From Streptomyces venezuelae (GTDB lineage Bacteria > Actinomycetota > Actinomycetes > Streptomycetales > Streptomycetaceae), in contig NZ_CP029191.1 of NCBI RefSeq assembly GCF_008642335.1, positions 2,480,001-2,544,000 on the forward strand: DNA of 64,000 nucleotides, read 5' to 3'. This document shows, one piece after another, positions 16,576 through 31,544 of this stretch. Both the position numbers and the translations under genes were made by a program. How positions within the stretch are numbered: the first letter of the stretch is position 1; every line of letters starts with the position of its first letter. Below the pieces are notes generated by a model that had not been told where the DNA came from, searched no databases, and saw only the letters and a program-made list of their open reading frames with translations.

Positions 16576-16816
16576 CGGTGTTTCCCTCCCGATTGAGCAA
16601 TCACCATTGAGTGGCGCGCAGATGCGAGATTTACGGACCGATGCCAATTAAGGCCGGTCCGCAGCGCCCCCCACAAGGAGAACTGGCGATGGGCATGCCT
16701 CGATCAAGGGATTTTGCGCACTGTGACAAAGCGCCCCAGACGTGGTCGTCTCCGATGTGCGCAGAGTGATGAATGCCGTCTGGATTTCCCCTGTGGGCTT
16801 CTCCGACCGGAATGGC

Positions 16817-18106
16817 ATGCTCGCGCCCATGGGCAGCCTTTTCGCCGAGTTGGCCCGGCAGGCTTCGGCCAACGCGCGCCGGGAGGTCGAGGCGTACGCG
16901 CGTGAGATCGCGGAGTTCGGGTTCCTGGACACGAACTCCCGGGCGCGGGGCGAGACGCTGGAGCACGCGCTGTGGTTGCGACGCCGTACGGTCGAACTCT
17001 CCCCTGACAACGCCGAACTGAGCGATGACGGCCTCGGCTACATCGCGGCGATCGGCGAGTCGCGGGCCGCGGCGGGGATGTCGCTGGACGCGCGGCAACG
17101 GGTCCTGCGACTGCACACCTCGCTCATGCTGCGCGAGATCAACGAAGCGACCGAGGCGCAGCGCGGCGCCGGAGTCGGAGTCGGCGAACTCATGCGGATG
17201 ATGCACTGGTTCGCCCCTCAGGGAGAACGCGGTATCCGTGCCTACAGTCAGGGCTTCGCGGCGGCGCTGCGACACCGTCTGCCGTACGTCGAGCAGGCTG
17301 CCCTGCTGGCCAGGTCGCTGCTCAAAGGGGACCCCATAGCGGCGGAACTCGCCTCGGCCCTGGGCATGGAACTGCCCGAACGCTGCGCGGTGGCGGTGAT
17401 CCGGGTGCCGGACCGGCCCGTCGGCGATCGTGACCTGGAGAGCGAGATCGAGGCGCTGGTGAAGACCCACCGGGCGCCGGTCACGTGGTGGCCGGGGAAG
17501 GGCAGCGGGGGCAGCAGGGGCAGCCGGAGTGGCGAGCTGATCGCCGTGATTCCCTTGCGCCCCGCCGCACCCCCGGCGCCCCCGGCGGCTCCAGCGCCCC
17601 CGGCGCCTCCGGCGGCTCCAGCGCCCCCGGGGGCCAGTGACCCGGTATCCGATCTCGTACGCGACTTCGCCCAGGCCCTGGGCCGCCCCTGCGCCGCCGG
17701 CACCGCCACCTCATCGCTGTCCGAGATCGCCGACGCCCTCGACCTGGCCCGGCGGATCAGCAGGGCGGCGCCGCTGCGACCGGCGTCCGCCCGGCTGCGG
17801 CCGTACACCATGTCGGACGTGTTCGTGGAACTCGCCGTGGCCGACACGCCGTCCGTCGACGCGTGGCTCCGCGCCGTGGGCCGGCGTCTGCAGCCCGGTC
17901 CGGACCTCGTCGTCACGCTTGACGCGTACTACCGCCACGACATGCACCGCGGCGCCACGGCGGCAGCTCTCAACGTCCACCCCCGCACCCTGGACTATCG
18001 CCTCCGCCGGGTGCGGGAACTCACCGGCATCAATCCCGGCTCGACGCGCGGCGTGCGCATTTTCAGCTCGGTCATTACGCGGCGCCTGTCGGAAGCGTGG
18101 CACTGA
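16817..18106 (+). CDS. PucR-like helix-turn-helix transcriptional regulator
   Basis: About 429 residues if started at the ATG at 16817 (alternatives 16769, 16829). The C-terminus has the PucR-type HTH: LDAYYRHDMHRGATAAALNVHPRTLDYRLRRVRELTGINP. The N-terminal alpha-helical half precedes a Pro/Ala linker built from a 27-bp DNA repeat (copies at 17582-17603 and 17609-17630). It is divergent from the secreted DUF4394 gene, a possible target. The effector is unknown. Confidence 0.82.
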   Translation: MLAPMGSLFAELARQASANARREVEAYAREIAEFGFLDTNSRARGETLEHALWLRRRTVELSPDNAELSDDGLGYIAAIGESRAAAGMSLDARQRVLRLHTSLMLREINEATEAQRGAGVGVGELMRMMHWFAPQGERGIRAYSQGFAAALRHRLPYVEQAALLARSLLKGDPIAAELASALGMELPERCAVAVIRVPDRPVGDRDLESEIEALVKTHRAPVTWWPGKGSGGSRGSRSGELIAVIPLRPAAPPAPPAAPAPPAPPAAPAPPGASDPVSDLVRDFAQALGRPCAAGTATSSLSEIADALDLARRISRAAPLRPASARLRPYTMSDVFVELAVADTPSVDAWLRAVGRRLQPGPDLVVTLDAYYRHDMHRGATAAALNVHPRTLDYRLRRVRELTGINPGSTRGVRIFSSVITRRLSEAWH

Positions 18107-18195
18107 ACCCTGTTCCAGAGTTCAAGAAGGAAGACTTTCCGCTTCGAAGTCGAATTCGCGATATTCGGTCGACCGATGAATCGGTGGAGGACGTT

Positions 18196-18233
18196 GAAGG
18201 GGCGGCGCCCGTGTGCGGGGATGCCGCCCCTTC
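18196..18233. terminator. Bidirectional terminator between convergent genes
   Basis: GAAGGGGCGGC (18196-18206) pairs with GCCGCCCCTTC (18223-18233) over a 16-nt loop that can itself pair. It separates the PucR-like gene from the ferredoxin reductase gene. Confidence 0.7.
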
Positions 18234-18250
18234 CGCATACCTGTGCCGGG

Positions 18251-19459
18251 TCAGGTCACCGGCTCCGGCAGCGTCATGAGGTGGGGGCGGTGGCGGGCCG
18301 CCGCGGCGGTTGCCGTGGGGCCGCCCAGGGCGGCTACGCCGATGAGGCGGGGGCCCTGGTAGTAGGCGTACAGGAGGTCGCCTTCCGGGGCGGTCGGGTC
18401 GCCCTCCAGGAGTTCGCTGCGGTCCGCCAGCGCGGGCTGGCCGAACGACTGGAGGCGCAGGGTGTACTGGTCGCTCCAGAAGGAGGGAAGGGGTGCGCAG
18501 GGCGCGGGGTCGCGGGGCGTGCCGGTCAGAGTCGCCACCAGCGTGCGGGCCGCGTGGCGGGCCGTGTCGCCGGGGACCGACCAGTGTTCCACCCGGCGCG
18601 GCACGGGGCCGTAGCGCGGGTTCGGGAAGCGGGCCACGTCGCCGACCGCCACCGCGTGCGGGATGCCGCCGATGCGCAGATGGGCGTCGCAGAGGATGCC
18701 GTCGGTCAGGTCGAGGCCCGGCGTCGCCGCCAGCCACTCCGTGTTGGGGAGCGAGCCGATCGCTTCGACCAGCAGGTCCGCCCGTAATTCCGTGCCGTCG
18801 TCCAGGACGCAGCCCTCTGGGGTGAGTTCCGTCGCCAGGCGGCCCATGTGGAAACGTACTCCCCTCGCCTCGTGGCGGCGCCGCAGCGCCCGCGCCAGAT
18901 GCGGACCGAGCGCCAGCACCATCGGTTCCGTCTCCGGCGCCACGACGGTCACCACGCACCCCGCCGTGCGCGCGGTGGCCGCCACCTCGCAGCCGATGAA
19001 ACCCGATCCGATCACTAACACCCGGGCGCCCGCCGCCAGTCCGGCGGCCAGGGCCGCCGAGTCCTCCAGCGTGCGGACGACGTGCCGGGGCGGGCCCCCG
19101 GGCATCGGGAGTCTGCGTGGCCGCACCCCCGTCGCGGCCACCAGACCCTCGTACATGTGGACCGATCCGTCGGTCAGTGTGAGTGTGTGCGTCATGAGGT
19201 CCGCGGCTGATACCGCCGCTCCCAGTCGCCACTCGACGTCCTCGACGCTCGGACGCCTGCGCAGTTCCGTGCCCGCCGCGAGCGCGTGGCCCGCGAGAAC
19301 CGCCTTGGACAGCGGCGGGCGGTTGTAAGGGAGGTGGGGCTCGTCGCCGAAGAGGGTGATCGGGCCGTGCCAGCCCGCGGCACGGAGTTGTTCCGCCGCG
19401 CGCAGGCCGCCGAGCGACGCCCCGACGACGGCGATCCCGGTCCGCCCGGTCCGCTCCAT
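18251..19459 (-). CDS. NAD(P)/FAD-dependent ferredoxin reductase (two TTA codons)
   Basis: 402 residues. FAD motif VVGASLGGLRAAEQLR (about 11-26), PYNRPPLSK, NAD motif VLVIGSGFIGCEVA (about 148-161), and the second FAD motif AVGDVARFPNPRYG: the pattern of putidaredoxin-reductase-like flavoproteins. It starts 6 bp after the [3Fe-4S] ferredoxin gene, so the two should pass electrons from NAD(P)H to a P450, most likely the one at 29095. Leu148 (19016-19018) and Leu225 (18785-18787) are encoded by TTA, predicting dependence on the bldA tRNA. Confidence 0.93.
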   Translation of the reverse strand: MERTGRTGIAVVGASLGGLRAAEQLRAAGWHGPITLFGDEPHLPYNRPPLSKAVLAGHALAAGTELRRRPSVEDVEWRLGAAVSAADLMTHTLTLTDGSVHMYEGLVAATGVRPRRLPMPGGPPRHVVRTLEDSAALAAGLAAGARVLVIGSGFIGCEVAATARTAGCVVTVVAPETEPMVLALGPHLARALRRRHEARGVRFHMGRLATELTPEGCVLDDGTELRADLLVEAIGSLPNTEWLAATPGLDLTDGILCDAHLRIGGIPHAVAVGDVARFPNPRYGPVPRRVEHWSVPGDTARHAARTLVATLTGTPRDPAPCAPLPSFWSDQYTLRLQSFGQPALADRSELLEGDPTAPEGDLLYAYYQGPRLIGVAALGGPTATAAAARHRPHLMTLPEPVT

Positions 19460-19465
19460 GACGCC

Positions 19466-19654
19466 TCAGCCCTCGACCCGGATGGCCTGCAGCGGGCATA
19501 CGTCGGCCGCGTCCTCGGCGTCGGCGCGCAGCGCCGCGTCGGGCGAGTCCACGTACGCGAGGCGGCCCTCCTCGTCGAGCCGGAAGATGTCCGGCGCGGC
19601 GAAGACGCACTGCCCGTGATCCTGGCAGACGTCCAGGTCGACTATCACCCTCAT
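19466..19654 (-). CDS. [3Fe-4S] ferredoxin, P450 partner type
   Basis: 62 residues from the ATG at 19654. Three cysteines, Cys10, Cys16 and Cys53 (VCQDHGQCVFAAPD ... DVCPLQAI), with His13 at the fourth ligand position, as in the small ferredoxins that serve actinobacterial P450s. It lies between the FAH gene and its reductase on the same strand. It probably shuttles electrons to the P450 encoded at the other end of the cluster. Confidence 0.93.
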   Translation of the reverse strand: MRVIVDLDVCQDHGQCVFAAPDIFRLDEEGRLAYVDSPDAALRADAEDAADVCPLQAIRVEG

Positions 19655-19717
19655 GTAGCTGATCAACTCCCCTATGGTGTCGTCATTTTGATGCGGACGT
19701 GCGGACCTGCGGACCGC

Positions 19718-20593
19718 TCAGCGGCGGGGTGGTCTGATGCCTCGGAACTCCCAGTCGCCGCCCAGCGCCGTGGACAGGACCTCCTCGGACTCCGTGGGCT
19801 GGGCGCCGACATCGGGGCGGATCGCCGTCGGGCCGGCGACGATGTGGTTGGTGAGGCGTCCCAGGCCCTCCGCCTCGACCTCGACGATGTCGCCGGGATG
19901 GACCGGGCGGGAGCCCGCGGGTGTGCCGGAGAGCAGGACGTCGCCCGGTTCCAGAGTGATCGTGCGGGCGATGTCGGCGACGAGGTAGTGCATGTCCCAC
20001 TGCATTTCGTCGGTCGAACCGTCCTGTGCGAGTTCGCCGTTGACGTACGTACGGAGGTGTTTTCCGTGGAAGTCCCAGCCCGTGACCAGGCCCGGGCCGA
20101 GCGGGCAGAGCGTGTCGGAGCCCTTGACGCGGAGCATCGAGCCGGCGTCGGTGTCGCGGAAGTCGTGCAGGCCGTAGTCGTTGGCGACGGTGAAGCCCGC
20201 GATGTACGCGCCGGCCTCGTCCGGCGCCACGTTGCGGCAGGTGCGGCCGATGACGATGCCGATCTCGCCCTCGTAGTTGAGGTACTTGCAGCCTTCGGGG
20301 CGTACGACGGCGCCGCCGTGGCTGTTGAGGGCGGAGACCGGCTTGTGGAAGTAGGTGGGGGCCGGGGGGAGCGTGGCTCCGAACTCCTCCACTCGGCTGC
20401 GGTGGTTGAGGTGGACCGCGATCACCTTGGACGGGCGTACGGGCGGAAGGTGGTGGGCCTCCGACGCCTTGACGCGGCGGCCGTCCGCGGCGATCAGTTC
20501 GTCGCCCTCCCGCACGACCTGGACGGCGGACCCGTCGAGCAGGACACGGCGGTACTCGGTCGTGGTCGTCGTCCTCGATCCGCTCCCCCTCAT
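19718..20593 (-). CDS. Fumarylacetoacetate hydrolase family protein (HpaG-like isomerase/decarboxylase)
   Basis: 291 residues. FAH fold motifs: KVIAVHLNHRSRVEEFG, then KYLNYEGEIGIVIGR with the metal-binding Glu pair, FTVANDYGLHDFRD and GDVLLSGTPAGSRPV. In the homoprotocatechuate meta-cleavage pathway, FAH proteins perform decarboxylation and isomerisation after the dehydrogenase step. The start overlaps the dioxygenase stop (ATGA), so the genes are coupled. The exact reaction is inferred from context. Confidence 0.87.
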   Translation of the reverse strand: MRGSGSRTTTTTEYRRVLLDGSAVQVVREGDELIAADGRRVKASEAHHLPPVRPSKVIAVHLNHRSRVEEFGATLPPAPTYFHKPVSALNSHGGAVVRPEGCKYLNYEGEIGIVIGRTCRNVAPDEAGAYIAGFTVANDYGLHDFRDTDAGSMLRVKGSDTLCPLGPGLVTGWDFHGKHLRTYVNGELAQDGSTDEMQWDMHYLVADIARTITLEPGDVLLSGTPAGSRPVHPGDIVEVEAEGLGRLTNHIVAGPTAIRPDVGAQPTESEEVLSTALGGDWEFRGIRPPRR

Positions 20594-21531
20594 GCCGTCG
20601 CCTCCGCTTCAGGGGCCTCGCCGGTCCAGCCGGTGGCCGGGCGGTCGAACCACAGGTGCATCTGGCCCGTGCCGATGGAGTTCTCGTACGCGCTGTAGGC
20701 GCGGCCGGGGGCGGTGCAGCGTTCCTCGCCCAGGGCGCCGATCATCATGAGGTAGTGCCCGAACCGTGCTTCCGGCTTGTGGGTGAGGAACTCCGGCATG
20801 GTGCGCAGGACTTGCGCGTGGTCGCCGCGCTCCAGCCATGCGATCCGTGCGTGGTCGGCCGCGCGCGCCTCGGGTGTACGGATGTGGGCGGGGTCGCTCG
20901 ACTCGTGGGCGCGGAGTTCGCGCAGCGGCCAGAACGTGTGCGAGAGGGCGCCGGACGCGATGAGCAGGACCCTGCGTCCGGGGAGCGCTGCGACGCCGTC
21001 GGCGAGCGCCCGGCCGAGCCGCAGGTGGTCCTCGGCGTCACCGGTCTGGCAGACCCCGATCGAGACCCACTTCTTTGCGGGGAGGCCGTGGCCCAGGTAC
21101 GTCCACAGGTTGATGGTGGCGTAGTACACGGGCAGGAAGGGGTCGTCGATCGGGGTGATCCAGGTGCCGTGTTTCTCGGCGAACCGGGCGACGGAGTGGG
21201 CGAGTTCGGGGTCGCCCGGGTAGTCGTACGGCATGCGGCACATGCCGCGCGGCAGCTCTTCGGAAGTGAAGAGTCCGGCGCGGCGCGGGTGTGCGGAGAT
21301 GACGAACTCGACGGTGGTCGCCCAGTGCGAGTCGAGGACGACGACGGTGTCGTAGTCGAGCGTCTCGAACACGTCGGCGCGCAGTTTGCGCAGGCCGGGG
21401 ACGAGGCTGATCTCGCGGCCCTCGTTGAGCTCTTTGCGAGTGGGCTCGGGCAGCACGATGGTGGGGACGTGGGCGAGGAGGCCCGCTCCGACGATCTCGC
21501 CGCCGGCCGACGCGCGGGGAGTGTCACTCAT
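20590..21531 (-). CDS. hpaD: Class III extradiol dioxygenase, 3,4-dihydroxyphenylacetate 2,3-dioxygenase-like
   Basis: 313 residues of the LigB/HpaD type. Likely Fe(II) ligands His21 (LLAHVPTIVLPEP) and His69 (VLDSHWATTVEF). HpaD-like signposts: GLFTSEELPRGM, YDYPGDPELAHSVA, VLLIASGALSHTFW, MPEFLTHKPEARFGHYLMM, and SIGTGQMHLWFDRP at the end. The family cleaves homoprotocatechuate to 5-carboxymethyl-2-hydroxymuconate semialdehyde, which suits the dehydrogenase encoded just upstream (8-bp overlap). Exact substrate not proven. Confidence 0.88.
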   Translation of the reverse strand: MSDTPRASAGGEIVGAGLLAHVPTIVLPEPTRKELNEGREISLVPGLRKLRADVFETLDYDTVVVLDSHWATTVEFVISAHPRRAGLFTSEELPRGMCRMPYDYPGDPELAHSVARFAEKHGTWITPIDDPFLPVYYATINLWTYLGHGLPAKKWVSIGVCQTGDAEDHLRLGRALADGVAALPGRRVLLIASGALSHTFWPLRELRAHESSDPAHIRTPEARAADHARIAWLERGDHAQVLRTMPEFLTHKPEARFGHYLMMIGALGEERCTAPGRAYSAYENSIGTGQMHLWFDRPATGWTGEAPEAEATA

Positions 21532-23044
21532 GGTCCGACCACCCCTTCGGCGCCGTCACCGTGTTCTTCAGGTCGCAGTAGAAGTCGAAGGACCAGTCGC
21601 CGCCCTCGCGCCCGATGCCGGAGCGGCGTGAGCCGCCGAAGGGCGCGGAGAGGTCGCGTACGTAGAAGCAGTTGACCCAGACCGTGCCCGCGACGAGCCG
21701 CGCGCCGATCCGTGCGGCGCGCTCGCGGTTCCCGGCGACGAGGGTGGCGGCGAGCCCGAAACGGGTGCCGTTGGCGAGGCGGACCGCCTCGTCGTCGTCG
21801 CCGTCGGGGAAGGTCTGGAGGGTGAGGACGGGTCCGAAGACCTCTTCCTGGACGATCTCGGAGTCCTGGTCCACGTCGGTGAGGAGGGTGGGGAGGTAGT
21901 AGTTTCCGCCCGATGCGTCGGACAGCCCGGTGGCGGGGGCGCCGCCGATGAGGGCTGTGGCGCCCGCGGCCAGTGCACGGCGCACGAATCCGTCGACGCG
22001 TTCCACGTGCCGGGGGTGGATGCTGGGCCCGATGTCCGTGGCCTCGTCGCGCGGGTCCCCCTGGACCAGCTTGGCCACGCGGTCGAGGAAGCGTCCGAGG
22101 AAGGCGTCGCGCACGGACTCCTCGACGAGGATGCGGGTGGCGGCGAGGCAGATCTGGCCCGCGTTGTCGTACTGCTCCACGGCGAGGTCGGCGGCCAGGT
22201 CCAGGTCGGCGTCGGCGAGGACGAGCAGCGGCGACTTGCCGCCGAGCTCGAAGCTGCACGGGATCAGGTGTGCCGCGGCGGCCTCGGCGATGCGGTGGGC
22301 GGTGGGCACGGAGCCGGTGAAGCTGATGCGGCGCACGTCGGGGTGGGCGGTGAGGGGTGCGCCGGCCTCGTCGCCGTACCCCTGCACGACGTTGAACACC
22401 CCCGGCGGCAGCCCCGCCTCGTGCGTGATGTCCGCGAGGAGCGATGCGGTGAGCGGGGTCCATTCGGCGGGCTTCAGCACGACGGTGGAGCCCGCGGCGA
22501 GCGCCGGGGCGATCTTCCAGCTGGACAGCATCAGCGGGGCGTTCCACGGCGTGATGAGGACGGCGGGGCCCGTAGGGTCCCAGCTCACGTGGTTGGTGTG
22601 GCCGCGGGTGTCGAAGTCGGCGTGGGAGAGGGCGAGGAGGCGGTCGGCGAAGTAGCGGAAGTTGTGGGCGACGCGGGGCAGGACGCCGCGGCGGTGCGAG
22701 CGGAGGAGGGCGCCGTTGTCGGCGGTCTCGACGGCGGCGAGCTCTTCGGCGCGGGCTTCGACACCGTCGGCGACGGCGTGCAGCAGCGCGGCGCGTTCGG
22801 CCGGGGGCGTGGCGGCCCAGCCGGGGAAGGCGGCAGCGGCGGCGGCGACGGCGGCGCTGGCCTCGGTGGCGGTGCCGCGGGCGATCTCGGCGAGCGGGGC
22901 GCCGTCGATGGGTGAGTGGTCGGTGAAGGTGGCGGGGGAGGTGACTCGGGTGCCGGCTATCCAGTGACGGGTGTCCACGGGCACGGTGGCGATGGTCGCG
23001 GTGTGCGGCGGGGGCCCCGGGGGTGTGGGGGCGGGGGGAGCCAT
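21524..23044 (-). CDS. hpaE: Aldehyde dehydrogenase, 5-carboxymethyl-2-hydroxymuconate semialdehyde dehydrogenase-like
   Basis: 506 residues from the ATG at 23044 (GGAGG site). ALDH motifs: ITPWNAPLMLSSWKIAPALAAGSTVVLKPAEWTP, FTGSVPTAHRIAEAA, general-base Glu266 (FELGGKSPLLV), nucleophile Cys299 (NAGQICLAATRI), and PFGGSRRSGIGREGG. First gene of the minus-strand operon ALDH-dioxygenase-FAH-ferredoxin-reductase. The HpaE assignment rests on the adjacent dioxygenase. The promoter carries CGTTTGAACCCAAACAA, a proposed MarR site. Confidence 0.88.
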   Translation of the reverse strand: MAPPAPTPPGPPPHTATIATVPVDTRHWIAGTRVTSPATFTDHSPIDGAPLAEIARGTATEASAAVAAAAAAFPGWAATPPAERAALLHAVADGVEARAEELAAVETADNGALLRSHRRGVLPRVAHNFRYFADRLLALSHADFDTRGHTNHVSWDPTGPAVLITPWNAPLMLSSWKIAPALAAGSTVVLKPAEWTPLTASLLADITHEAGLPPGVFNVVQGYGDEAGAPLTAHPDVRRISFTGSVPTAHRIAEAAAAHLIPCSFELGGKSPLLVLADADLDLAADLAVEQYDNAGQICLAATRILVEESVRDAFLGRFLDRVAKLVQGDPRDEATDIGPSIHPRHVERVDGFVRRALAAGATALIGGAPATGLSDASGGNYYLPTLLTDVDQDSEIVQEEVFGPVLTLQTFPDGDDDEAVRLANGTRFGLAATLVAGNRERAARIGARLVAGTVWVNCFYVRDLSAPFGGSRRSGIGREGGDWSFDFYCDLKNTVTAPKGWSDHE

Positions 23045-23066
23045 CTCTACCTCCGATCCTCCAGTT

Positions 23067-23083
23067 CGTTTGAACCCAAACAA
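23067..23083. promoter_or_regulatory. MarR operator O1 (ALDH operon promoter)
   Basis: CGTTTGAACCCAAACAA, with inverted GTTTG/CAAAC, matches 14 of 17 positions of sites O2 and O5. It lies 23 bp before the aldehyde dehydrogenase start. Confidence 0.6.
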
Positions 23084-23140
23084 CATTAGGGAGGGCCCGG
23101 GGTGGGGTCAACCCCTCGTGGGCGGTGCGGTGTTGAGATA

Positions 23141-23157
23141 TTGTTTGACCTCAAACG
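23141..23157. promoter_or_regulatory. MarR operator O2 (before the PuuD-like gene)
   Basis: TTGTTTGACCTCAAACG has perfect GTTTGA/TCAAAC arms. Its reverse complement is identical over 17 bp to O5 before the glutamine-synthetase-like gene. It lies 29 bp before the ATG at 23186. Confidence 0.7.
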
Positions 23158-23185
23158 ATAGGCCTGCTTCCGGAAGTCAGCTGCC

Positions 23186-23986
23186 ATGCCGATGCCCCGG
23201 CCCGCGCACGTCCGCCCCCTCATCGCCCTCCCCCAGCGGTACGCCGCCACGACCTCCGCTCTGCGCTACGCCGCCGTCGTCACGGCACGCGCCCTCGCCG
23301 ACGCGGTGTTCCGCGCGGGCGGCGAGCCGTTCATGATGCATCCCGGCCCGCCGGACGAGGCGGCCGAACGGCTCGCGCGCTGCGCCGGGCTGCTGCTCCC
23401 GGGCGGCGGGGACGTCGCACCGTGGCGGTACGCGGCCGAAGCTGATGCGGAGACCGGGGGCGGGGCCGGGTCCGGGGGCGGGGGCGGGGTGCACTCCTCC
23501 GTGTACGACGTCGACGACGCACAGGACGAGTTCGACCTCGCGCTCGCCCGCTGCGCACTGTCGCGCGGACTTCCGACGCTGGCGGTCTGCCGGGGCATGC
23601 AGGTGGTCAACGTCGCGCTCGGCGGCACGCTCCGGCAGGACATGGGCGGCCCGACGACGGAGCACCGACACAAGGTGCACGGGGTGCGGGTGGCGGCGGG
23701 GTCGGTGGTGGCGGGGGCGCTGGGTGCCACGCGGGCGGACGTGTCCTGCTACCACCACCAGTGCGTGGAACTCCCGGGCCGGGGACTCACCCCCTCCGCA
23801 TGGGCGTCCGACGGAACGATCGAGGCCCTCGAACTGCGGGGCGCCAGGGGGTGGTTCGCGGCCGTGCAGTGGCACCCGGAGGACACGGCGGCGACGGACG
23901 CGGGGCAGCAGGGGTTGTTCGGGGGGCTGGTCGGGGCGGCGGGGGTTTGGGGGGAGCGGGGTGCGCGGGGGGCGCGGGTCGGTTGA
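23186..23986 (+). CDS. Gamma-glutamyl-gamma-aminobutyrate hydrolase family protein (PuuD-like, class I amidotransferase fold)
   Basis: 266 residues. Nucleophile elbow AVCRGMQVVNVALGG with Cys135, and the His-Glu pair in VQWHPED (His230, Glu232). LLLPGGGDVAPWRY is typical of peptidase C26/PuuD. A Gly/Ala-rich insert (about residues 85-103) follows. PuuD-type enzymes hydrolyse gamma-glutamyl amides made by a glutamine-synthetase-like ligase, and such a ligase is encoded at 27586 with the same operator. The last part of the gene is unusually rich in G-runs. Confidence 0.87.
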   Translation: MPMPRPAHVRPLIALPQRYAATTSALRYAAVVTARALADAVFRAGGEPFMMHPGPPDEAAERLARCAGLLLPGGGDVAPWRYAAEADAETGGGAGSGGGGGVHSSVYDVDDAQDEFDLALARCALSRGLPTLAVCRGMQVVNVALGGTLRQDMGGPTTEHRHKVHGVRVAAGSVVAGALGATRADVSCYHHQCVELPGRGLTPSAWASDGTIEALELRGARGWFAAVQWHPEDTAATDAGQQGLFGGLVGAAGVWGERGARGARVG

Positions 23987-24024
23987 GGGGGTGGGGGGCG
24001 CGGTCTGGGCTGCGTCGCGCGCGC

Positions 24025-24055
24025 GGCGGGGGCGGCGGGGGCGGCGGGGGCGGCG
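24025..24055 (+). repeat. G-rich tandem repeat between convergent genes
   Basis: Three copies of GGCGGGGGC followed by GGCG. This lies in a 252-bp non-coding gap (23987-24238) between the PuuD-like and MarR genes and could form a G-quadruplex on the plus strand. The gap also holds two similar GCTGACGGGTGGCG-type segments (near 24072 and 24138). Confidence 0.6.
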
Positions 24056-24238
24056 AGACGACAGCGCGTCGACTGACGGGTGGCGGCGGTCTGGACTGCC
24101 GCGGTTTTGTGTTTTCTTGGGGGGCGCGCGCGGGGCGGCTGACGGGTGGCGACGGTTTGCGGCCGCCACCGGGGGCGGAACGCGCGGGTCAGTTGGCCGG
24201 GGGGGGCGGCAGTCCGGGCCGGCGTAGGGGCGTGGCTG

Positions 24239-24817
24239 TCAGGCGGCTGGTCTGGGTTTGCGGCCGCTTCGGCGGGGGGTCGGGGGCGCGCCGTTCAGGA
24301 GGGTTTGCCTGCGGTCGTCGCCCTTTTCCTCCGTCCGTACGACGATCTTGCGGAGGAGGTCCGCGAGCGTCTCGCACTCCTCGTCCGTCAGCCCCTCCGT
24401 GACGAACGCCTCCTCCGCGTTGAAGGCGGGGAAGACCTCACCCATCAGGCGCTCGCCCTCGTCCGTGAGGCTGAGCAGGACGAGCCTGCCGTCCTCGGGG
24501 TGCCCGCGGCGTTCGAGCAGGCCCCGGCCCATGAGCGTGCGGGCCACGCCCGTCAGCGTGCCCTTGGAGATGCCGGCCTCCTCGGCGACGTACCGCGTCT
24601 CCATCTCGCCCCAGATCCAGACCACATAGAGCACGACGAACGACGTCCACGTCAGTTCCGCGCCGCGCAGCACGGAGTTCTCGAAGTGCTGCCGGACCGC
24701 CGCGGCCGCCCGGTAGATGTTCGAGACCGCGGCCATCTGCTCGTACGCGACGGGGGTGCCGCCGAGCTTGGCCCTGACCGCCTTCTCGGTCTCGTGGATG
24801 GTGCGATCGCCCGTCAC
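24239..24817 (-). CDS. MarR family transcriptional regulator of the catabolic cluster
   Basis: 192 residues from the GTG at 24817, preceded by AGGAGG with 8-bp spacing. The wHTH is visible as LTWTSFVVLYVVWIWGEMETRYVAEEAGISKGTLTGVARTLMGRGLLERRGHPEDGR, with the DGR wing. The C-terminal tail (PPTPRRSGRKPRPAA) is basic and disordered. It is encoded centrally in the cluster and divergent from the APC permease. Inference: it binds the GTTTGA-NN-TCAAAC sites and is released by a pathway metabolite. Confidence 0.9.
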   Translation of the reverse strand: MTGDRTIHETEKAVRAKLGGTPVAYEQMAAVSNIYRAAAAVRQHFENSVLRGAELTWTSFVVLYVVWIWGEMETRYVAEEAGISKGTLTGVARTLMGRGLLERRGHPEDGRLVLLSLTDEGERLMGEVFPAFNAEEAFVTEGLTDEECETLADLLRKIVVRTEEKGDDRRQTLLNGAPPTPRRSGRKPRPAA

Positions 24818-24889
24818 GTCCGTGCCCTCCTCTTGCCGTACTTCTTGCCGTGGTGCATACGCCTCCGTACCATCGGCGCCACTCGAATT

Positions 24890-24907
24890 TCGTACGGGCT
24901 CAAACGA
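24890..24907. promoter_or_regulatory. MarR operator O3 (MarR/permease divergent promoter)
   Basis: TCGTACGGGCTCAAACGA is the exact reverse complement of the 18-bp site O4 before the decarboxylase-family gene. One half (TCAAAC) matches the consensus of O1, O2 and O5. The other half (GTACGG) is altered in the same way in both copies. Confidence 0.65.
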
Positions 24908-24952
24908 TAACGCGTCCCGAGTAAACGCGCCCTCCTCCCCCCGGAGTTCGGC

Positions 24953-26401
24953 ATGGCCGCCCTCGACTCCCCCACCACGCCCGTCTCCACCACCGTCCCC
25001 GAACGCCGCATCGGCGTCGCGGGCATCGTCTTCGTCGTGATCGCCGCGTCCGCGCCGCTCACCGTGGCCGCCGGAGGTGTCCCGCAGTCCCTCGGCATCA
25101 CCGGCATCCTCGGGATACCACTTCTCTACCTCCTCGTGGCCGTCGTACTCGCGCTCTTCAGCTCCGGGTACGCGGCCATGAGCCGCCACATCACGGGCGC
25201 CGGTGCGTTCTACGCGTACACCGCGCGCGGCCTCGGCCGCATACCGGGAGTCGGCGCGGCCTTCGTCGCGCTGCTCTCGTACAACGCCATGCAGATCGGC
25301 ATCGCCGGCCTCTTCGGCGCCACCACCGCCGAGTTCATCGACGCCCGGACGGGGGTGGAGATTCGCTGGTGGGTTCTCGTACTCGCGTGTACGGCGGTCG
25401 TCGGGGCGCTCGGCTACCGCCGTGTCGACGTGGGTGTGCGCGTCCTCGCCGTCCTGCTCGTCCTGGAGTTCGGCGCGGTGCTCGTCTTCGACATCGGCCA
25501 GTTCGCCCACGCCCCCGAAGGCGTCTCGACCGCGCCGCTCACCTGGGGCGCCGCCACGGACGGCGCGCTCGGTGTCGCGCTGTGCTGCGTGTTCGCGGCG
25601 TACATGGGCTTCGAGTCCGGCGCGCTGTACAGCGAGGAGTGCCGGGATCCGCGCCGGACCGTGGCGCGCGCCACGTACATCGCCGTCGGGCTCATCGGCG
25701 TCTTCTACGCCGCCACGGCCTGGGCGATGGTGACGGGCGCGGGGACGGGGCGGGCGACGCGGGTCGCGGCCGAGCAGGGGCCGGGGATGATGTTCTCGCT
25801 CAGCGACGCGAGCCTGGGTGCGGCGTTCTCGGACTTCGCCCAGTTCTTCCTGATCACCAGCCTGCTCGCGGCGCTGCTCTCCTTCCACAACGCGGTCGCG
25901 CGGTACGTGCGTTCGCTCGGGCGGGAAGGTGTGCTGCCCCGCGGGCTCGGGGTCCTGCACCGGCGGCACGCCTCGCCGCACCGGGGTTCGTTGCTGCAGA
26001 CCGGGGTCACCGCCGTCGTCATCGGCGTCTTCGCCCTGGCCGGGCGTGACCCCGTCGCCGACGTCTTCACCTGGCTCACCAACCTCGGCGCGCTCGGCGT
26101 GATCCTGCTCCTGTTCGCCACGTCGGTGTCGGTCGTCGCGTACTTCGCGCGCCGGCCCGAGCTGGGCGAACCCCTCTGGCACCGGCTGATCGCGCCCGTC
26201 CTCTCGGGCGCCGCCCTCGCCGTCATCTTCTGGCTCGCCCTCACCAACTTCAGCGTCCAGCTGGGGGTTTCACCGGGCAATCCGCTGCGGTGGGTCCTGC
26301 CGGGGCTCATCCTGGTCGCGGCGGGGGCGGGGGTCGGGTGGGGGGTTTGGCTACGGGTGGGGCGGCCGGGGGTTTATGCGGGGGTGGGGGGCAGCAGTTG
26401 A
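24953..26401 (+). CDS. APC family amino acid/amine permease
   Basis: 482 residues with about twelve membrane segments. The start is VAGIVFVVIAASAPLTVAAGGVPQ, then AMSRHITGAGAFYAYTARGLGR, FAAYMGFESGALYSEECRDPRRTVARATY and LLAALLSFHNAVARYVRSLGREGVLP, all typical of APC transporters for amino acids or amines. Its location beside the MarR gene, with operator O3 between, suggests it imports the substrate of the cluster. Confidence 0.9.
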   Translation: MAALDSPTTPVSTTVPERRIGVAGIVFVVIAASAPLTVAAGGVPQSLGITGILGIPLLYLLVAVVLALFSSGYAAMSRHITGAGAFYAYTARGLGRIPGVGAAFVALLSYNAMQIGIAGLFGATTAEFIDARTGVEIRWWVLVLACTAVVGALGYRRVDVGVRVLAVLLVLEFGAVLVFDIGQFAHAPEGVSTAPLTWGAATDGALGVALCCVFAAYMGFESGALYSEECRDPRRTVARATYIAVGLIGVFYAATAWAMVTGAGTGRATRVAAEQGPGMMFSLSDASLGAAFSDFAQFFLITSLLAALLSFHNAVARYVRSLGREGVLPRGLGVLHRRHASPHRGSLLQTGVTAVVIGVFALAGRDPVADVFTWLTNLGALGVILLLFATSVSVVAYFARRPELGEPLWHRLIAPVLSGAALAVIFWLALTNFSVQLGVSPGNPLRWVLPGLILVAAGAGVGWGVWLRVGRPGVYAGVGGSS

Positions 26402-26410
26402 TCGGGTCCC

Positions 26411-26442
26411 GGGGGGAGGGGCAGGGGACAGGGGACAGGGGG
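26411..26442 (+). repeat. G-quadruplex-prone tract between convergent genes
   Basis: Five G-runs of 4-6 bases separated by 1-3 nt (GGGGGG-A-GGGG-CA-GGGG-ACA-GGGG-ACA-GGGGG). It lies between the APC permease and the decarboxylase-family gene and may act as a transcription-stopping structure. Confidence 0.6.
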
Positions 26443-26463
26443 CAAGTTACGGCAACGTTGGGG

Positions 26464-27255
26464 TTACAAGCCCCGCTCCAGCAGCGTGCCGCCCGTCCAC
26501 GTGACGCCCACCTGGCGGTAGTACGCGCCGATCGGCTCGTCGACCGTGAGCTTCGCCAGTTCCTCCGTGGGCGCGTCGAAGAGGGTCAGGTCCGCGTCGC
26601 CCGACCACGCCTGGCCGCCCTCGAACGCGGCGGCGCCCGACGCGATCAGCTCGTCGAGGGCGAGGCCCTTGCCGTCGATGGCGGGGAGCTGGCGGTGGTG
26701 AGCCATGGGGTGCGCGTTGACGAACCCGTTGGTCTCGGAGGGTTCACGCAGGGTGACCACGGCCTCGGCGAGGCGGCGGTCGGCGGCGGCGAGCGTGGCG
26801 CCGAAGACGGCGCCGGGCTCGATGCGGGGGGCGGGGCCGTAGGGGTGGGGGCGGGTGAGGTGGATGGAGCCGAGCTTCTTCGGGTAGCCCTGGTGGTTGC
26901 CGCGGGCGATGGCGAAGTCCTTGTCGACCCAGATGTAGACGCAGCGGGAGTAGGTGCGGGCGCGGTAGGCGCAGCGGACGACCGCGAAGCACTCCTTGTA
27001 CTGGGCGCGGACGGGGTCGAGCAGCTCGGCCCTCTCGGCGCCGCACGACTGCCAGTCGGCCCAGATGAGGGCGACGGCGCCGGGGTCTTCGGGGGCCATG
27101 TCCAGGGGCTCGGGGAGGAGTTCGCGGACGCGGGCGGGGTTGGTGCGGTACTCGATGGTGAGGAGGTCGCCGGAGTAGTGCCAGGGGGGTGCGGGGATGA
27201 GGGAGGAACGGCCGGTGGCGCTCTTGGGCGGATGGAACCCGCGGACTCCGACCAT
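26464..27255 (-). CDS. Acetoacetate decarboxylase family protein
   Basis: 263 residues with the ADC family pattern: PPWHYSGDLLTIEYRTNPARVRELLPEPL, the YKECFAVVRCAYRARTYSRCVYIWVDKDFAIARGNHQGYPKKLGSI segment containing the conserved GYPKK lysines, then FGATLAAADRRLAEAVVTL. Family members decarboxylate beta-keto acids or act as hydratases/aldolases using a lysine. In this cluster it may handle a ring-cleavage product. The reaction is not established. Its promoter contains operator O4. Confidence 0.85.
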   Translation of the reverse strand: MVGVRGFHPPKSATGRSSLIPAPPWHYSGDLLTIEYRTNPARVRELLPEPLDMAPEDPGAVALIWADWQSCGAERAELLDPVRAQYKECFAVVRCAYRARTYSRCVYIWVDKDFAIARGNHQGYPKKLGSIHLTRPHPYGPAPRIEPGAVFGATLAAADRRLAEAVVTLREPSETNGFVNAHPMAHHRQLPAIDGKGLALDELIASGAAAFEGGQAWSGDADLTLFDAPTEELAKLTVDEPIGAYYRQVGVTWTGGTLLERGL

Positions 27256-27585
27256 GCTCGGCGCACCTCTCCTCGGTCGGGTTCGTTTGAGCCCGTACGA
27301 TACGCCGGGCGGTACCGCCTGTCACGACTCCTGGCGGGGGCGCCTTGGGTGCGGTTCGCCGGTTGCCCGCCCGGGCGGTGCGGGGTGAACGGGTAGGTGG
27401 GTGGGTGTGGTTCGCCGCGGGGCGGCGGGCGCGGGGCGTCGCCGCGGGGATCAGGTTCAGGCCCCCGCAGGGGACCCCACCCGTAAACCCCCCGCGTACG
27501 GGGCCTTGCGGAGGGGCGCTCGCCGTCCCTAACGTTTGAGGTCAAACAAATCGCGCGTCGCGCCCCCAGAAAGGCTGGGCCACGG
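27256..27585. promoter_or_regulatory. Divergent promoter region with operators O4 and O5
   Basis: 330 bp between the decarboxylase-family gene and the GS-like gene. It holds O4 (TCGTTTGAGCCCGTACGA, 27283-27300) close to the minus-strand start and O5 (CGTTTGAGGTCAAACAA, 27533-27549) 36 bp before the plus-strand GTG. The middle is G/C-rich with no gene. Confidence 0.65.
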
Positions 27586-29013
27586 GTGAGTGAAGCGAGC
27601 GCACCACCACAGGGCAGGGCGACCACCGCCCGGACCACGGCTACGGCCACGGCCACCGTGGAGAACCTCCGAGCCACCGGCACCGACGTCGTCCGCGTCG
27701 TCTACCCCGACCTCCTGGGCGCCGACCGGGGCAGAGACATCCTCCTGGGCCGGCTGCCGAGCGCCTGCACGCACGGCCTGACCTTCTGCAGGGCCGTGTA
27801 CCACACCACCCCCCGCGGCGACGTCGTCCCCGTCGCGGGCGGACTCGACGCGGGGCTCCCCGACATCTGCGTACAACCGGACCTCGCCACCGTGAAGCCA
27901 CTGCCGTGGGAGCCCGGCGTCGCCTGGTGTCTGGGCGACAGCCTGGACCCGCTCACGGAGGGGCCCGTACCCGAGTCCCCACGCGCCCTGCTGAAGCGCG
28001 TACTTGCGCGCGTGGACGATTACGCCGCCCCGGACCACCAGGGCGCCGACCGGCGCGGGCCCCTCGCCGCCGTCGTCGGGCCCGAACTGGAGTACTTCCT
28101 CTGCGACTCCTCCCCCACCACCCCCTCCGGCTGGACCCCCTACGGCGCCGCCACCGGCAACGTCTACAGCGCCGGGCGGCGCGGCGACCCCGATGGCCAT
28201 CTCCTGCGCACGTTGCGCCAGTTGGAGGCCCTCGGCATTGGCGTCATCGCCGGGAACCATGAATTCGACGGTGGACAGTTCGAGATCAATCTCGATCACT
28301 CCGGCGCCCTGGACGCCGCCGACCGCGCCTTCTTCTTCAAGGCCGCCGTCAAGGAGACCGCCCGCCACGAAGGGCGCCTCGCGACCTTCATGGCCAAGCC
28401 CTTCAACGGGCTCGGCGGGTCCGGGTTCCATGTGCATCTGTCGCTCGTCGACGGGGAGGGGCGGAACGTCTTCGACGATCCGGGGGCGGAGTACGGGCTC
28501 TCCGCCGCCGCCCGGCACGCCGTCGGCGGCGTCCTGCGGCACGCCCCCGCCCTCGCCGCCCTCCTCAACCCCACCGTCAACTCCTACAAACGCTTCGGGC
28601 CCGACACCCTCGCCCCCTGGCTGATCGACTGGGGGCTCGACAACCGCAGTGCCATGGTCCGCATCCCGCCCGAGCGCGGCGTCGGCACCCGCCTTGAGCT
28701 GCGCCTCGGTGACGCGTCCGCCAACCCCTACCTCCTCGTCGCCGGCACCGTCGCCGCCGTCCTGCTCGGCCTCCGCGACCGGCCCGAACCGCCCGCCCCG
28801 CTGGAGGGGTACGGATACGACGAGTCCTCCGCACCCCGCCTCCCCGCCACGCTCCCCGAGGCCCTCGACGCGCTGGAGGCCGACGAGGCGCTCACCGGGC
28901 TCCTCGGCGAGGACTTCACCCGCGCGTTCCTGACGTACAAGCGCAACGAGGTCGAGCGGTACCAACAGAGCGTCACTGATTGGGAGTTCGGGGAGTACGC
29001 CTTTCTCATTTGA
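27586..29013 (+). CDS. Glutamine synthetase family protein (probable gamma-glutamyl-amine ligase)
   Basis: 475 residues from the GTG at 27586 (AGAAAGG site). GS-fold motifs: VGPELEYFLCD, GNHEFDGGQFEINLDHS, TFMAKPFNGLGGSGFHVHLSL, NSYKRFG, and RIPPERGVGTRLELRLGDASANPYLL. Family knowledge: many actinobacterial GS-like paralogues join glutamate to amines (polyamines, ethanolamide, anilines) instead of ammonia. The presence of a PuuD-like hydrolase and an amine-type permease under the same operators favours such a ligase. It is followed by the P450. Confidence 0.88.
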   Translation: MSEASAPPQGRATTARTTATATATVENLRATGTDVVRVVYPDLLGADRGRDILLGRLPSACTHGLTFCRAVYHTTPRGDVVPVAGGLDAGLPDICVQPDLATVKPLPWEPGVAWCLGDSLDPLTEGPVPESPRALLKRVLARVDDYAAPDHQGADRRGPLAAVVGPELEYFLCDSSPTTPSGWTPYGAATGNVYSAGRRGDPDGHLLRTLRQLEALGIGVIAGNHEFDGGQFEINLDHSGALDAADRAFFFKAAVKETARHEGRLATFMAKPFNGLGGSGFHVHLSLVDGEGRNVFDDPGAEYGLSAAARHAVGGVLRHAPALAALLNPTVNSYKRFGPDTLAPWLIDWGLDNRSAMVRIPPERGVGTRLELRLGDASANPYLLVAGTVAAVLLGLRDRPEPPAPLEGYGYDESSAPRLPATLPEALDALEADEALTGLLGEDFTRAFLTYKRNEVERYQQSVTDWEFGEYAFLI

Positions 29014-29094
29014 GCGCCGGATCAGTCCGCCCCTCCCCCGCCGAGACCGGAAAGGCCGCGTAAGGAAGGCCAAGCCCTGAAAGGGAGCACCCCT

Positions 29095-30363
29095 ATGCGC
29101 ACGGACACCCCTCCCCTCCCTCTCGCCGACGTCGACCTCGCCGACAACGACCGGTTCACCGACCGCGAGCTGCCCTGGCGGATGTTCGACGTGCTGCGCC
29201 GCGAGGATCCCGTCCACTGGCAGCCCGAGCCGCCGCCCAACTCCGGTTTCTGGGCGGTCACCCGGCACGCCGACATCGTGCGCGTCGACCGCGACCCCGA
29301 GACCTTCACCTCCGAGATGTTCACCAACCTGGAGGAGGTGGACGACGACTACATCACGTTGCGCCGGTCGCTTCTCGAGACCGACGGGCTGCGGCACCGG
29401 GCCATGCGGCTCATCCTGCAGAAGCGGTTCACGCCGCGCGCCGTCGCGACGTACGAGACGTTCCTGCGGGGCCTGACCGCGCGTACGCTCGACGCCGCTC
29501 TCCCCAAAGGCACGTTCGATTTCGTACGGGAAGTGTCCGCCGACTTTCCCATCAACGTGCTCGCCCGCATGCTCGACGTCCCGGAAGGCGACACGCAGCA
29601 GCTCATCGACTGGGGCAACCGCATCATCGGCAACACCGACCCCGACTACGCCGACGTGCTCCTGGAGAGCGCGGAGAGCGGGCAGTACCGGAATTTACCC
29701 TTCAGGTCGCCCGCTTCCCTCGAAGTCTTCGCGTACGGGCGGGAGTTGGCCGCCCGGCGGCGGGGTGGCAGCGGGGAAGATCTCGTGACGGCCCTCGTCA
29801 ACAGCTCGCCCAAGGACGGCGTACCGCTCTCCGCCACCGACTTCGACAACTACTTCCTGCTGCTCGTCGTCGCGGGGAACGAGACCACCCGGCACGCCAT
29901 CTCGCACTCCATGCTCGCGCTCATCGAGCATCCGGAGGAACGGGCACGGCTCGTCCGCGATCCCTCGCTCATTCCGAACGCCGTCGAGGAGTGCCTGCGT
30001 TGGGCCTCGCCCGTCTACCACTTCCGGCGTACGGCCACGTGTGACGTCGAGCTCGGCGGGAAGCTCATCAGGGCGGGCGACAAGGTCGTCATGTGGTTCG
30101 CCTCCGGCAACCGCGACGAGGACGTCTTCCCCGATCCGTACCGCTTCGACGTCACCCGCGAGAACAACGACCACGTCACCTTCGGCAAGGGCAGCCCGCA
30201 CTTCTGCCTCGGCAACTCCCTGGCCCGTCTGGAGATGCGGATCATGTTCGAGGAGCTGCTGCCGCGGCTCGCGGACATCCGCGTCGCGGGCGAGGTGCGG
30301 CGCGTACGGTCAAACTTCGTCAACGGGATCAAGGAGCTGCCCGTGACGGTGACCCTGGCCTAG
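29095..30363 (+). CDS. Cytochrome P450 (contains a TTA codon)
   Basis: 422 residues with a GGGAG site. I-helix oxygen-activation motif VVAGNETTRHAISH (about 262-275), ExxR motif EECLRW, and haem loop FGKGSPHFCLGN with Cys371. The type resembles soluble class I bacterial P450s of the CYP124/125/126-like group. Leu201 (29695-29697) is encoded by TTA. It is 81 bp downstream of the GS-like gene. P450, ferredoxin and GS-like genes also occur together in mycobacterial morpholine/piperidine degradation clusters (established knowledge). Electron partners are encoded at the other end of this cluster. Confidence 0.95.
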   Translation: MRTDTPPLPLADVDLADNDRFTDRELPWRMFDVLRREDPVHWQPEPPPNSGFWAVTRHADIVRVDRDPETFTSEMFTNLEEVDDDYITLRRSLLETDGLRHRAMRLILQKRFTPRAVATYETFLRGLTARTLDAALPKGTFDFVREVSADFPINVLARMLDVPEGDTQQLIDWGNRIIGNTDPDYADVLLESAESGQYRNLPFRSPASLEVFAYGRELAARRRGGSGEDLVTALVNSSPKDGVPLSATDFDNYFLLLVVAGNETTRHAISHSMLALIEHPEERARLVRDPSLIPNAVEECLRWASPVYHFRRTATCDVELGGKLIRAGDKVVMWFASGNRDEDVFPDPYRFDVTRENNDHVTFGKGSPHFCLGNSLARLEMRIMFEELLPRLADIRVAGEVRRVRSNFVNGIKELPVTVTLA

Positions 30364-30404: not shown

Positions 30405-31544
30405 TCAGCCGCCCGACGTGTCCAGTTCCGCTTCCTCGCTCACGCCCGCGCAGTCGTACGGGTCCTTCAGCCAGCCGTCCGGCAGGACCACGCGGTTGTT
30501 GCCGGAGGTGCGGCCGCGCGGGCCGCCCGCGCCGGCCGGCCACGGCTGATCGAGGTCCAACTCGCCGAGCCCGTCCTCCAGTTCGGCGAGCGAGGAGGTG
30601 ATCGCGAGGCGCTTGCGCATCTCGGAGCCGACCGCGAAGCCCTTCAGGTACCAGGCCACGTGCTTGCGGAAGTCGATGACACCCCGCGCCTCGTCGCCGA
30701 TCCACTCGCCGAGGAGCGTGGCGTGGCGGAGCATGACCTTCGAGACCTCGCGCAGGGTCGGCGCCTGGGGTGCGCCCGTGCCCTCGAAGGCGGCGACCAG
30801 GTCGCCGAAGAGCCAGGGGCGGCCGAGGCAGCCGCGGCCCACGACGACGCCGTCGCAGCCGGTCTCGTTCATCATGCGGACCGCGTCCGCAGCCGACCAG
30901 ATGTCGCCGTTGCCGAGGACGGGGATCTCGGGGACGTGCTCCTTGAGGCGGGCGATGGCGTCCCAGTCGGCGGTGCCTCCGTAGTGCTGGGCGGCGGTGC
31001 GGCCGTGCAGGGCGATGGCCGTGACGCCCTCCTCGACGGCGATGCGGCCCGCGTCCAGGAAGGTGATGTGCTCGTCGTTGATGCCCTTGCGCATCTTCAT
31101 CGTGACGGGCAGGTCCCCGGCGCCGCTGACGGCCTCGCGGAGGATCGCGCGCAGCAGCGGGCGCTTGTACGGGAGCGCGGAGCCGCCGCCCTTGCGGGTG
31201 ACCTTGGGGACGGGGCAGCCGAAGTTCAGGTCGATGTGGTCGGCGAGGTCCTCCTCCGCGATCATGCGGACGGCCTTGCCGACGGTCGCGGGGTCGACGC
31301 CGTACAGCTGGATCGAGCGGGGCTTCTCCGTCTCGTCGAAGTGGATCAGCTGCATGGTCTTCTCGTTGCGCTCGACCAGGGCGCGCGTGGTGATCATCTC
31401 GCTGACGAAGAGGCCCTTGCCGCCGCTGAACTCCCGGCACAGCGTCCGGAACGGCGCGTTCGTGATCCCCGCCATGGGGGCGAGCACGACGGGCGGCTGC
31501 ACGGTGTGCGGGCCGATCGACAGGGGCTGCGGCAGGGACGGCAT
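30405..31544 (-). CDS. dusB: tRNA dihydrouridine synthase
   Basis: 379 residues from the ATG at 31544 (GGAG site). An FMN-binding TIM barrel starts with VLAPMAGITNAPFR, followed by DLNFGCPVPKVTRKGGGSAL with the catalytic Cys110, ALHGRTAAQHYGG, PVLGNGDIWSAADA and VVVGRGCLGRPWLF: the DusB pattern. It reduces specific uridines in tRNA. It is convergent with the P450 gene, so the catabolic cluster ends here. Confidence 0.95.
   Translation of the reverse strand: MPSLPQPLSIGPHTVQPPVVLAPMAGITNAPFRTLCREFSGGKGLFVSEMITTRALVERNEKTMQLIHFDETEKPRSIQLYGVDPATVGKAVRMIAEEDLADHIDLNFGCPVPKVTRKGGGSALPYKRPLLRAILREAVSGAGDLPVTMKMRKGINDEHITFLDAGRIAVEEGVTAIALHGRTAAQHYGGTADWDAIARLKEHVPEIPVLGNGDIWSAADAVRMMNETGCDGVVVGRGCLGRPWLFGDLVAAFEGTGAPQAPTLREVSKVMLRHATLLGEWIGDEARGVIDFRKHVAWYLKGFAVGSEMRKRLAITSSLAELEDGLGELDLDQPWPAGAGGPRGRTSGNNRVVLPDGWLKDPYDCAGVSEEAELDTSGG

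Follow-up and report, generated by a model that had tools for sequence, protein, structure and literature searches.

A conserved actinobacterial gene cluster predicted to degrade tyramine or dopamine through gamma-glutamylated intermediates

Genes and features of the cluster

The window analyzed here is a stretch of 64,000 nucleotides from Streptomyces venezuelae (NZ_CP029191.1, positions 2,480,001 to 2,544,000). Within it, positions 18251-30363 carry eleven genes, all with intact frames, flanked by a hairpin (18196-18233) and a dihydrouridine synthase gene (dusB). Judging from gene families and context, this cluster is probably a catabolic regulon for an arylethylamine, the likeliest being tyramine and/or dopamine; a gamma-glutamyl tag would stay attached to the substrate during ring fission. 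An earlier note, made from the letters of this DNA, had described eleven genes between the hairpin and dusB; their presence, frames and family assignments were borne out. Its coordinates also held overall, with corrections to the MarR gene (24239-24817, minus strand) and the ferredoxin gene (19466-19654, minus strand); the likely start of the HpaE-like gene is 23044. The features are as follows (bit scores are those against NCBIfam models).

18196..18233, GC-rich, terminator-like hairpin without a T-run at the 3' edge of the cluster (from folding)
18251..19459, minus strand, FAD/NAD(P)H ferredoxin reductase, presumably the P450 partner (PF07992 and PF14759)
19466..19654, minus strand, single-cluster ferredoxin of 62 amino acids (PF13370)
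19718..20593, minus strand, FAH-family enzyme, HpaG C-terminal-like (PF01557); proposed meta-cleavage decarboxylase/isomerase
20590..21531, minus strand, LigB-class extradiol dioxygenase, HpaD-like (116 bits, cut-off 316); proposed gamma-glutamyl-dopamine 2,3-dioxygenase
21524..23044, minus strand, aldehyde dehydrogenase (ALDH), HpaE-like (517 bits, cut-off 638); proposed ring-fission semialdehyde dehydrogenase
23064..23085, operator on the HpaE side, GTTTGAACCCAAAC
23139..23160, operator on the PuuD side, GTTTGACCTCAAAC
23186..23986, plus strand, PuuD-like gamma-glutamyl hydrolase (Peptidase_C26, PF07722; NF008471)
24239..24817, minus strand, MarR/HpaR-like regulator (PF01047; HpaR best NCBIfam match, 51 bits, cut-off 121)
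24888..24909, degenerate operator in the marR/permease interval, 2 or 3 mismatches depending on the scan
24953..26401, plus strand, APC-superfamily permease (PF13520)
26464..27255, minus strand, acetoacetate decarboxylase (ADC)-superfamily protein (PF06314; related to 4jm3 (MppR), 4zbo and 5upb); proposed pyruvate-forming hydratase-aldolase
27285..27302, degenerate operator in front of the ADC gene, with 2 mismatches
27530..27551, operator upstream of the glutamine synthetase (GS)-like gene, GTTTGAGGTCAAAC
27586..29013, plus strand, GS-like enzyme (Gln-synt_C, PF00120), candidate gamma-glutamyl amide synthetase
29095..30363, plus strand, cytochrome P450, CYP124/125-like (family match); proposed ring hydroxylase (or demethylase)
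30405-31544, dihydrouridine synthase gene (PF01207), flanking the cluster

The first five minus-strand genes (reductase to HpaE-like) look like one operon because the FAH and HpaD genes, and the HpaD and HpaE genes, overlap by a few bases. For three of the proteins the top-ranking NCBIfam names are HpaD, HpaE and HpaR; for the FAH-family protein the C-terminal HpaG model ranks second (209 bits, cut-off 276). Residues H21, H69, H198 and E254 of the HpaD-like protein are identical to those at the aligned positions of 8iq8, and the PuuD-like protein retains the CRGMQ and WHPE motifs. The permease is approximately 40% identical to that of most Streptomyces relatives. At the 3' edge, the region 18185-18245 folds with -36 kcal/mol (z -3.9; 0 of 200 shuffles equally stable); the hairpin is not among the calls of a consensus terminator scan. 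Just upstream of the hairpin, window positions 15685-18106 encode a DUF4394 protein and a PucR-type regulator.

Shared operators and conservation

A near-palindromic operator, GTTTGRNNYCAAAC, precedes the divergent units in intact or degenerate form. Scanning the window gave 13 matches versus 2.5 expected (palindromes counted on both strands; 0 of 100 shuffles). An 18-base version allowing at most 2 mismatches has six matches in the 8.05 Mb genome, all inside the cluster, a count that is not independent of these sites because the pattern was derived from them. At up to 3 mismatches, matches are scattered genome-wide and the total of a reversed-pattern control is similar. An independent test is provided by relatives: across 33 Streptomyces cluster loci, sites with at most 1 mismatch number 89 in 102 kb of non-coding DNA versus 0 in 538 kb of coding DNA, and the reversed pattern has none in either. 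Operator-like sites with 1-2 mismatches are also found upstream of cluster genes in several other families. The eleven genes form one regulon with a shared operator that is absent elsewhere in the genome at up to 2 mismatches, and the MarR protein of the cluster is likely to bind these sites and control all units. In one relative, genes for a luciferase-like monooxygenase and an Amidohydro_3 protein lie behind the same operator (L033:3443-6223), possibly as an entry for N-acyl amines; in another (L061:1939-3639), a gene related to this Amidohydro_3 gene adjoins the PuuD gene.

The HpaD-like protein has matches in 39 of 150 Streptomyces genomes (own genome included): 34 have ALDH-HpaD-FAH neighbors, four are a paralogue (approximately 60% identity, other context) and one is at noise level. 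The 35 cluster-type HpaD places include the window and 28 read as stretches of up to 20 kb; six others (G001, G073, G097, G099, G139 and G147) were read as approximately 4 kb only, and the ALDH, HpaD and FAH genes stand together there. Among 394 Actinomycetes genomes, 30 have an HpaD-like gene (the G497 copy being the paralogue) and 34 an ADC-family gene. The ADC gene is present in 29 of the 30 HpaD-positive genomes versus 5 of the 364 HpaD-negative ones (Fisher p ~1e-37). The co-occurring genes lie on one contig, within approximately 11 kb, in 27 of these 29 pairs, the exceptions being G268 and G466, where each gene has a contig of its own.

A scan of GTDB species genomes gave 557 stretches with 539 confirmed relatives, which are tblastn matches only, as distinct from cluster-checked loci. 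The 80 that were retained are those nearest to a low-GC query and lean to the Microbacteriaceae. All 35 scan loci of at least 20 kb carry the GS, HpaD, FAH, P450, HpaE-like ALDH and ferredoxin reductase genes. ADC, glutamine amidotransferase (GATase) and ferredoxin genes are each present in 34, MarR in 32, the permease in 31 and an aromatic amino acid decarboxylase (AADC)-like gene in 15; because several loci end at contig edges, these counts are minimum values. Microcella, Salinibacterium, Aurantimicrobium and Rhodoluna records are among these loci, and shorter ones among the 80 bear the names Nanopelagicales and Planktophila. HpaD and ADC genes are present even in genomes of 1.3-1.9 Mb. Loci of the separate samplings come partly from the same genomes (L092/L169, L080/L135) and are not independent. 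Their genes were called with a home-made caller that missed the window MarR gene and the PuuD gene of L032, and start codons and overlaps depend on it.

Because the gene set is conserved across families and genomes, the cluster is an old or often-transferred unit rather than a local accident. Its ADC-family protein places the window close to Streptomyces venezuelae (94%). The earlier note had proposed one catabolic unit and had named a lack of neighborhood conservation among the observations that would refute it; the shared operators before divergent units and the conservation across families uphold the proposal, and the genes travel together in many species. A family of approximately 510 amino acids is encoded beside or near the cluster in L083, L084, L087, L090 and L182:8084-9604 (for the L084 copy, Pfam gave no match at 1e-5).

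Proposed route and its alternatives

The proposed route builds on the observed gene content, regulatory sites, conservation and linkage, with every reaction predicted from gene families and context. The amine would be imported by the APC permease or, in some relatives, made from tyrosine or 3,4-dihydroxyphenylalanine (DOPA) by a linked decarboxylase. Tyramine would be converted to gamma-Glu-tyramine by the GS-like ligase and hydroxylated on the ring by the P450, ferredoxin and reductase to form gamma-Glu-dopamine. The HpaD-like enzyme would cleave the ring between C2 and C3 with the tag retained, the HpaE-like dehydrogenase would oxidize the C2 aldehyde to a carboxylate, and the FAH enzyme would catalyze decarboxylation (this carboxylate being lost as CO2) and isomerization. 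The ADC-family protein, acting as a Schiff-base enzyme, would catalyze hydration and retro-aldol cleavage to pyruvate (ring carbons 3, 4 and 5) and gamma-glutamyl-gamma-aminobutyraldehyde (ring C6, ring C1, two side-chain carbons and the tagged nitrogen). A PuuC-like dehydrogenase would oxidize this aldehyde to gamma-glutamyl-gamma-aminobutyric acid (gamma-Glu-GABA), and PuuD (in other families, another GATase) would split it into GABA and glutamate. Elsewhere, the genome encodes a GABA transaminase that scores above its NCBIfam cut-off. The tag would block both condensation of the amine with the ring-fission aldehyde and cyclization of aminobutanal. Traced carbon by carbon through the conserved enzymes, tyramine fits exactly and an amine oxidase is unnecessary. 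As the predicted retro-aldol product is the PuuC substrate and gamma-Glu-GABA is the PuuD substrate, the Puu-like and Hpa-like genes would form one linear route.

Residues of two enzymes bear on this route. The GS-like protein (244 bits versus GGputSyn, cut-off 650) has a Leu at the position of the Glu-flap glutamate of true GS. This glutamate is missing in all 41 readable copies (54 GS-family sequences were examined, of which 13 without a match to the motif pattern were dropped). The window ADC-family protein retains the lysine motif GYPKK, and the PKK is found in 54 of 54 ADC-family copies, aligning with that of 4zbo and 5upb (which we take to be Sbi00515 and Swit_4259); MppR (4jm3) has PKQ at this position. 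These three solved relatives are presumably Schiff-base enzymes of pyruvate-type substrates. No match to HpaI (TIGR02311) was found in the genome, and the suggestion of the earlier note that the ADC-family protein stands in for a late step is thereby strengthened.

A second ALDH, PuuC-like, is encoded in 27 of the 33 Streptomyces loci. Its gene adjoins the PuuD gene on the same strand in 25, and 22 of these have the same 4-base overlap as called. PuuC is its best NCBIfam name (552 bits; next 479). Because the two genes are coupled in this way, glutamyl release probably comes last, at gamma-Glu-GABA. In the window, the PuuD gene stands directly behind the operator pair (23045-23185), where the PuuC gene begins in L032. 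Here the PuuC step may fall to one of 20 further ALDH-family matches of this genome (HpaE-like enzyme excluded), the best of which is 48% identical to the PuuC-like protein of relatives, or to the HpaE-like enzyme itself.

The earlier note had placed amine release before ring cleavage. In the alternative of this kind, the amide is hydrolyzed after hydroxylation, the amine is deaminated to homoprotocatechuate, the HpaD, HpaE, FAH and ADC proteins degrade homoprotocatechuate, and the PuuC-like protein is an arylacetaldehyde dehydrogenase. The Hpa names of the four proteins speak for it, and models of the StyD-type phenylacetaldehyde dehydrogenase also match the second ALDH (464 bits). The genome encodes one copper amine oxidase and 16 flavin amine oxidase family matches elsewhere, making a deaminating route possible, and class III aminotransferase genes lie near a few clusters. 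However, when ten flavin and one copper amine-oxidase-family proteins of this genome were searched against 92 cluster loci (33 + 24 + 35) and 32 kb of the window, none had a relative at E 1e-3 (best score 32 bits; 967 matches for a positive control with cluster proteins), a search that did not extend to distant and PuuB-type (DAO) oxidases. In addition, the Hpa matches are all under their cut-offs, HpaI has no match, a free catecholamine would be expected on chemical grounds to cyclize after cleavage, and the PuuC-PuuD pair is left unexplained. Early release is therefore disfavored, and we regard the homoprotocatechuate route as unlikely. A weak HpaF (CHMI) homologue is encoded outside the cluster (G000:C1:2762524-2762808, L101); it was given no role, as its gene adjoins a permease gene and open frames that read like inositol catabolism.

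Decarboxylases provide clues to the substrate; in other families, 11 of 22 genomes have such genes near the cluster. A TyrDC-like pyridoxal-phosphate decarboxylase gene lies inside the cluster in L037, L047 and L048; the closest solved proteins are 6ebn, a non-canonical aromatic amino acid decarboxylase, and 5hsi. For the AADC-like protein of L086, the DOPA decarboxylase 7xin ranks first, nearly tied with a desferrioxamine enzyme and 4obu; for that of L173, 4obu (presumably a tryptophan decarboxylase) is the sole solved match below 1e-40. Both subfamilies are likely, but not proven, to act on aromatic amino acids. In L173 and L171 the decarboxylase gene comes directly after the P450 gene or overlaps with it. 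L037 and L047 are missing the P450, ferredoxin and reductase genes, and the genomes behind them have no P450 ortholog (best 42-46% identity); one of the two encodes a tyrosinase. A start from DOPA would make the ring hydroxylase unnecessary there, a hint from two related cases only. An arylamine (aniline-type) substrate was rejected, as the recurrent decarboxylases and the PuuC/PuuD module indicate an ethylamine side chain.

Tagged ring cleavage could also serve a different arylethylamine, one that is methoxylated or N-methylated; the P450 would then be a demethylase. VanA/VanB-like Rieske oxygenase and reductase genes lie beside the cluster in five loci (L069, L072, L073, L074 and L087; L075 has the reductase only), suggesting demethylation of related amines (Pfam on L073). 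A PurU-like (formyltetrahydrofolate deformylase) gene adjoins the GS gene in four (L081, L082, L083 and L090; Pfam Formyl_trans_N in L081), suggesting a one-carbon by-product. The CYP124/125-like P450 offers no substrate clue of its own. The Rieske and deformylase genes are, however, absent from the other annotated loci, and the decarboxylases and GABA-type end module directly fit tyramine or dopamine; this alternative is rather improbable.

The HpaD paralogues of L049-L052 and L098 were rejected as cluster members; those of L050-L052 and L098 stand with HpaB, asparagine synthase, PvcA and SARP-type genes. Around the L050 copy, Pfam recognizes a flavin reductase, HpaB hydroxylase, asparagine synthase, TauD oxygenase, DIT1/PvcA protein and BTAD/NB-ARC regulator. 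These loci (L049 in part) appear to be a biosynthetic cluster, possibly for a DOPA-derived isonitrile. Such paralogues would suit the idea that the window cluster is itself biosynthetic or detoxifying and modifies an amine without feeding central metabolism. This is very improbable: the conserved set has small-product enzymes (ADC, PuuC and PuuD) and usually a permease, and HpaD and ADC genes persist in the small genomes mentioned above.

Several observations weigh against retention of the tag and against tyramine or dopamine as the substrate. The window cluster has no PuuC-like gene, and the relatives' PuuC-like protein is under its cut-off (850 bits), as is the PuuD-like protein (49 bits, cut-off 266). 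Only 19 of the 35 loci of at least 20 kb show PuuD, and only 9 show PuuC. In Microbacteriaceae clusters without these genes the two final steps must be different, and where PuuD is missing hydrolysis would have to be performed by the other GATase (34 of 35 loci). The GS-like protein retains an Asp50-like residue that is typical of ammonia-using GS and lost in NpaA1, and the P450 might demethylate rather than hydroxylate. The TyrDC-like protein scores 122 bits (cut-off 905), and the best NCBIfam name of four AADC-like proteins is diaminobutyrate decarboxylase, far under its cut-off. G269 (L075/L182) has ADC, GS, P450, FAH and PuuD genes, and no HpaD-like gene was found by search or in the stretch read; its ADC and decarboxylase frames are split, perhaps by decay or assembly error. 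Finally, the NCBIfam matches of the ten window proteins scanned are all below cut-off, which fits shifted substrates and proves none. With these points considered, a tagged route for an arylethylamine remains the probable function, and the substrate class given in the earlier note (gamma-glutamylation, P450 oxidation and HpaD-type cleavage of an arylalkylamine) is supported.

Comparison with known systems

The cluster may well represent a new aromatic-amine catabolism, found from Streptomyces to planktonic lake and marine Actinobacteria, in which the tag shields the amine while the ring is hydroxylated and opened and the chain shortened, and no amine oxidase is needed to turn tyramine or dopamine into GABA, pyruvate and CO2, the ADC enzyme being the hydratase-aldolase. 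Among the matches listed in a literature search (titles and abstract openings, with most subscription papers outside it), no description of this combination was found. If correct, the model would join the textbook putrescine gamma-glutamyl and homoprotocatechuate meta-cleavage pathways into a third and predict a bacterial route from dopamine or tyramine to GABA. It would also give a function to many ADC-, GS-, P450- and HpaD-like genes annotated today by family only, and point to a way in which actinobacteria of soil, lakes and the sea could use biogenic phenolic amines.

The homoprotocatechuate (Hpa) pathway is a meta-cleavage scheme with which the cluster shares HpaD-, HpaE-, HpaG-C- and HpaR-like proteins and, as proposed, the order of ring-fission reactions. 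The cluster differs in that it has no HpaF, HpaH or HpaI gene, the ADC protein being proposed for the HpaH/HpaI steps, and in that the side chain would be aminoethyl-gamma-Glu, whereas that of the Hpa pathway is acetate. At the equivalog level the scores fall short (HpaD 116/316, HpaE 517/638 and HpaG-C 209/276 bits). MppR, 4zbo and 5upb belong to the same superfamily as the ADC protein and come from other contexts; here the protein is placed at the last carbon-cleaving step.

Aniline and 1-naphthylamine (Npa) degradation are the nearest precedents for attaching glutamate to an aromatic amine ahead of its oxidation (PMC11335346). Common to these pathways and the cluster are GS-like glutamylation before ring oxidation and a GATase-like gene. 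The Npa dioxygenase system yields a free diol (1,2-dihydroxynaphthalene), whereas here a P450 is present and the tag would, in the proposed route, stay on when the ring is opened. Of the comparisons drawn in the earlier note, those with aniline and cyclic-amine pathways fit less well than a combination of Puu and Hpa.

The E. coli Puu pathway and the Streptomyces GlnA2/GlnA3 branch share with the cluster GS-like amine glutamylation, a PuuC-type dehydrogenase and PuuD-type release of GABA from gamma-Glu-GABA (PMC9397018). The PuuC-PuuD gene linkage of the Puu pathway is found in the Streptomyces loci, with scores below the equivalog cut-offs. Unlike in that pathway, no PuuB counterpart was recognized among the recurrent families put through Pfam (no dedicated PuuB/DAO search was made), and the aminobutyraldehyde is proposed to come from an aromatic ring by P450 oxidation, extradiol cleavage, decarboxylation and retro-aldol cleavage. 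The cluster, a member of neither system as tested, would work like a hybrid of Puu and Hpa.

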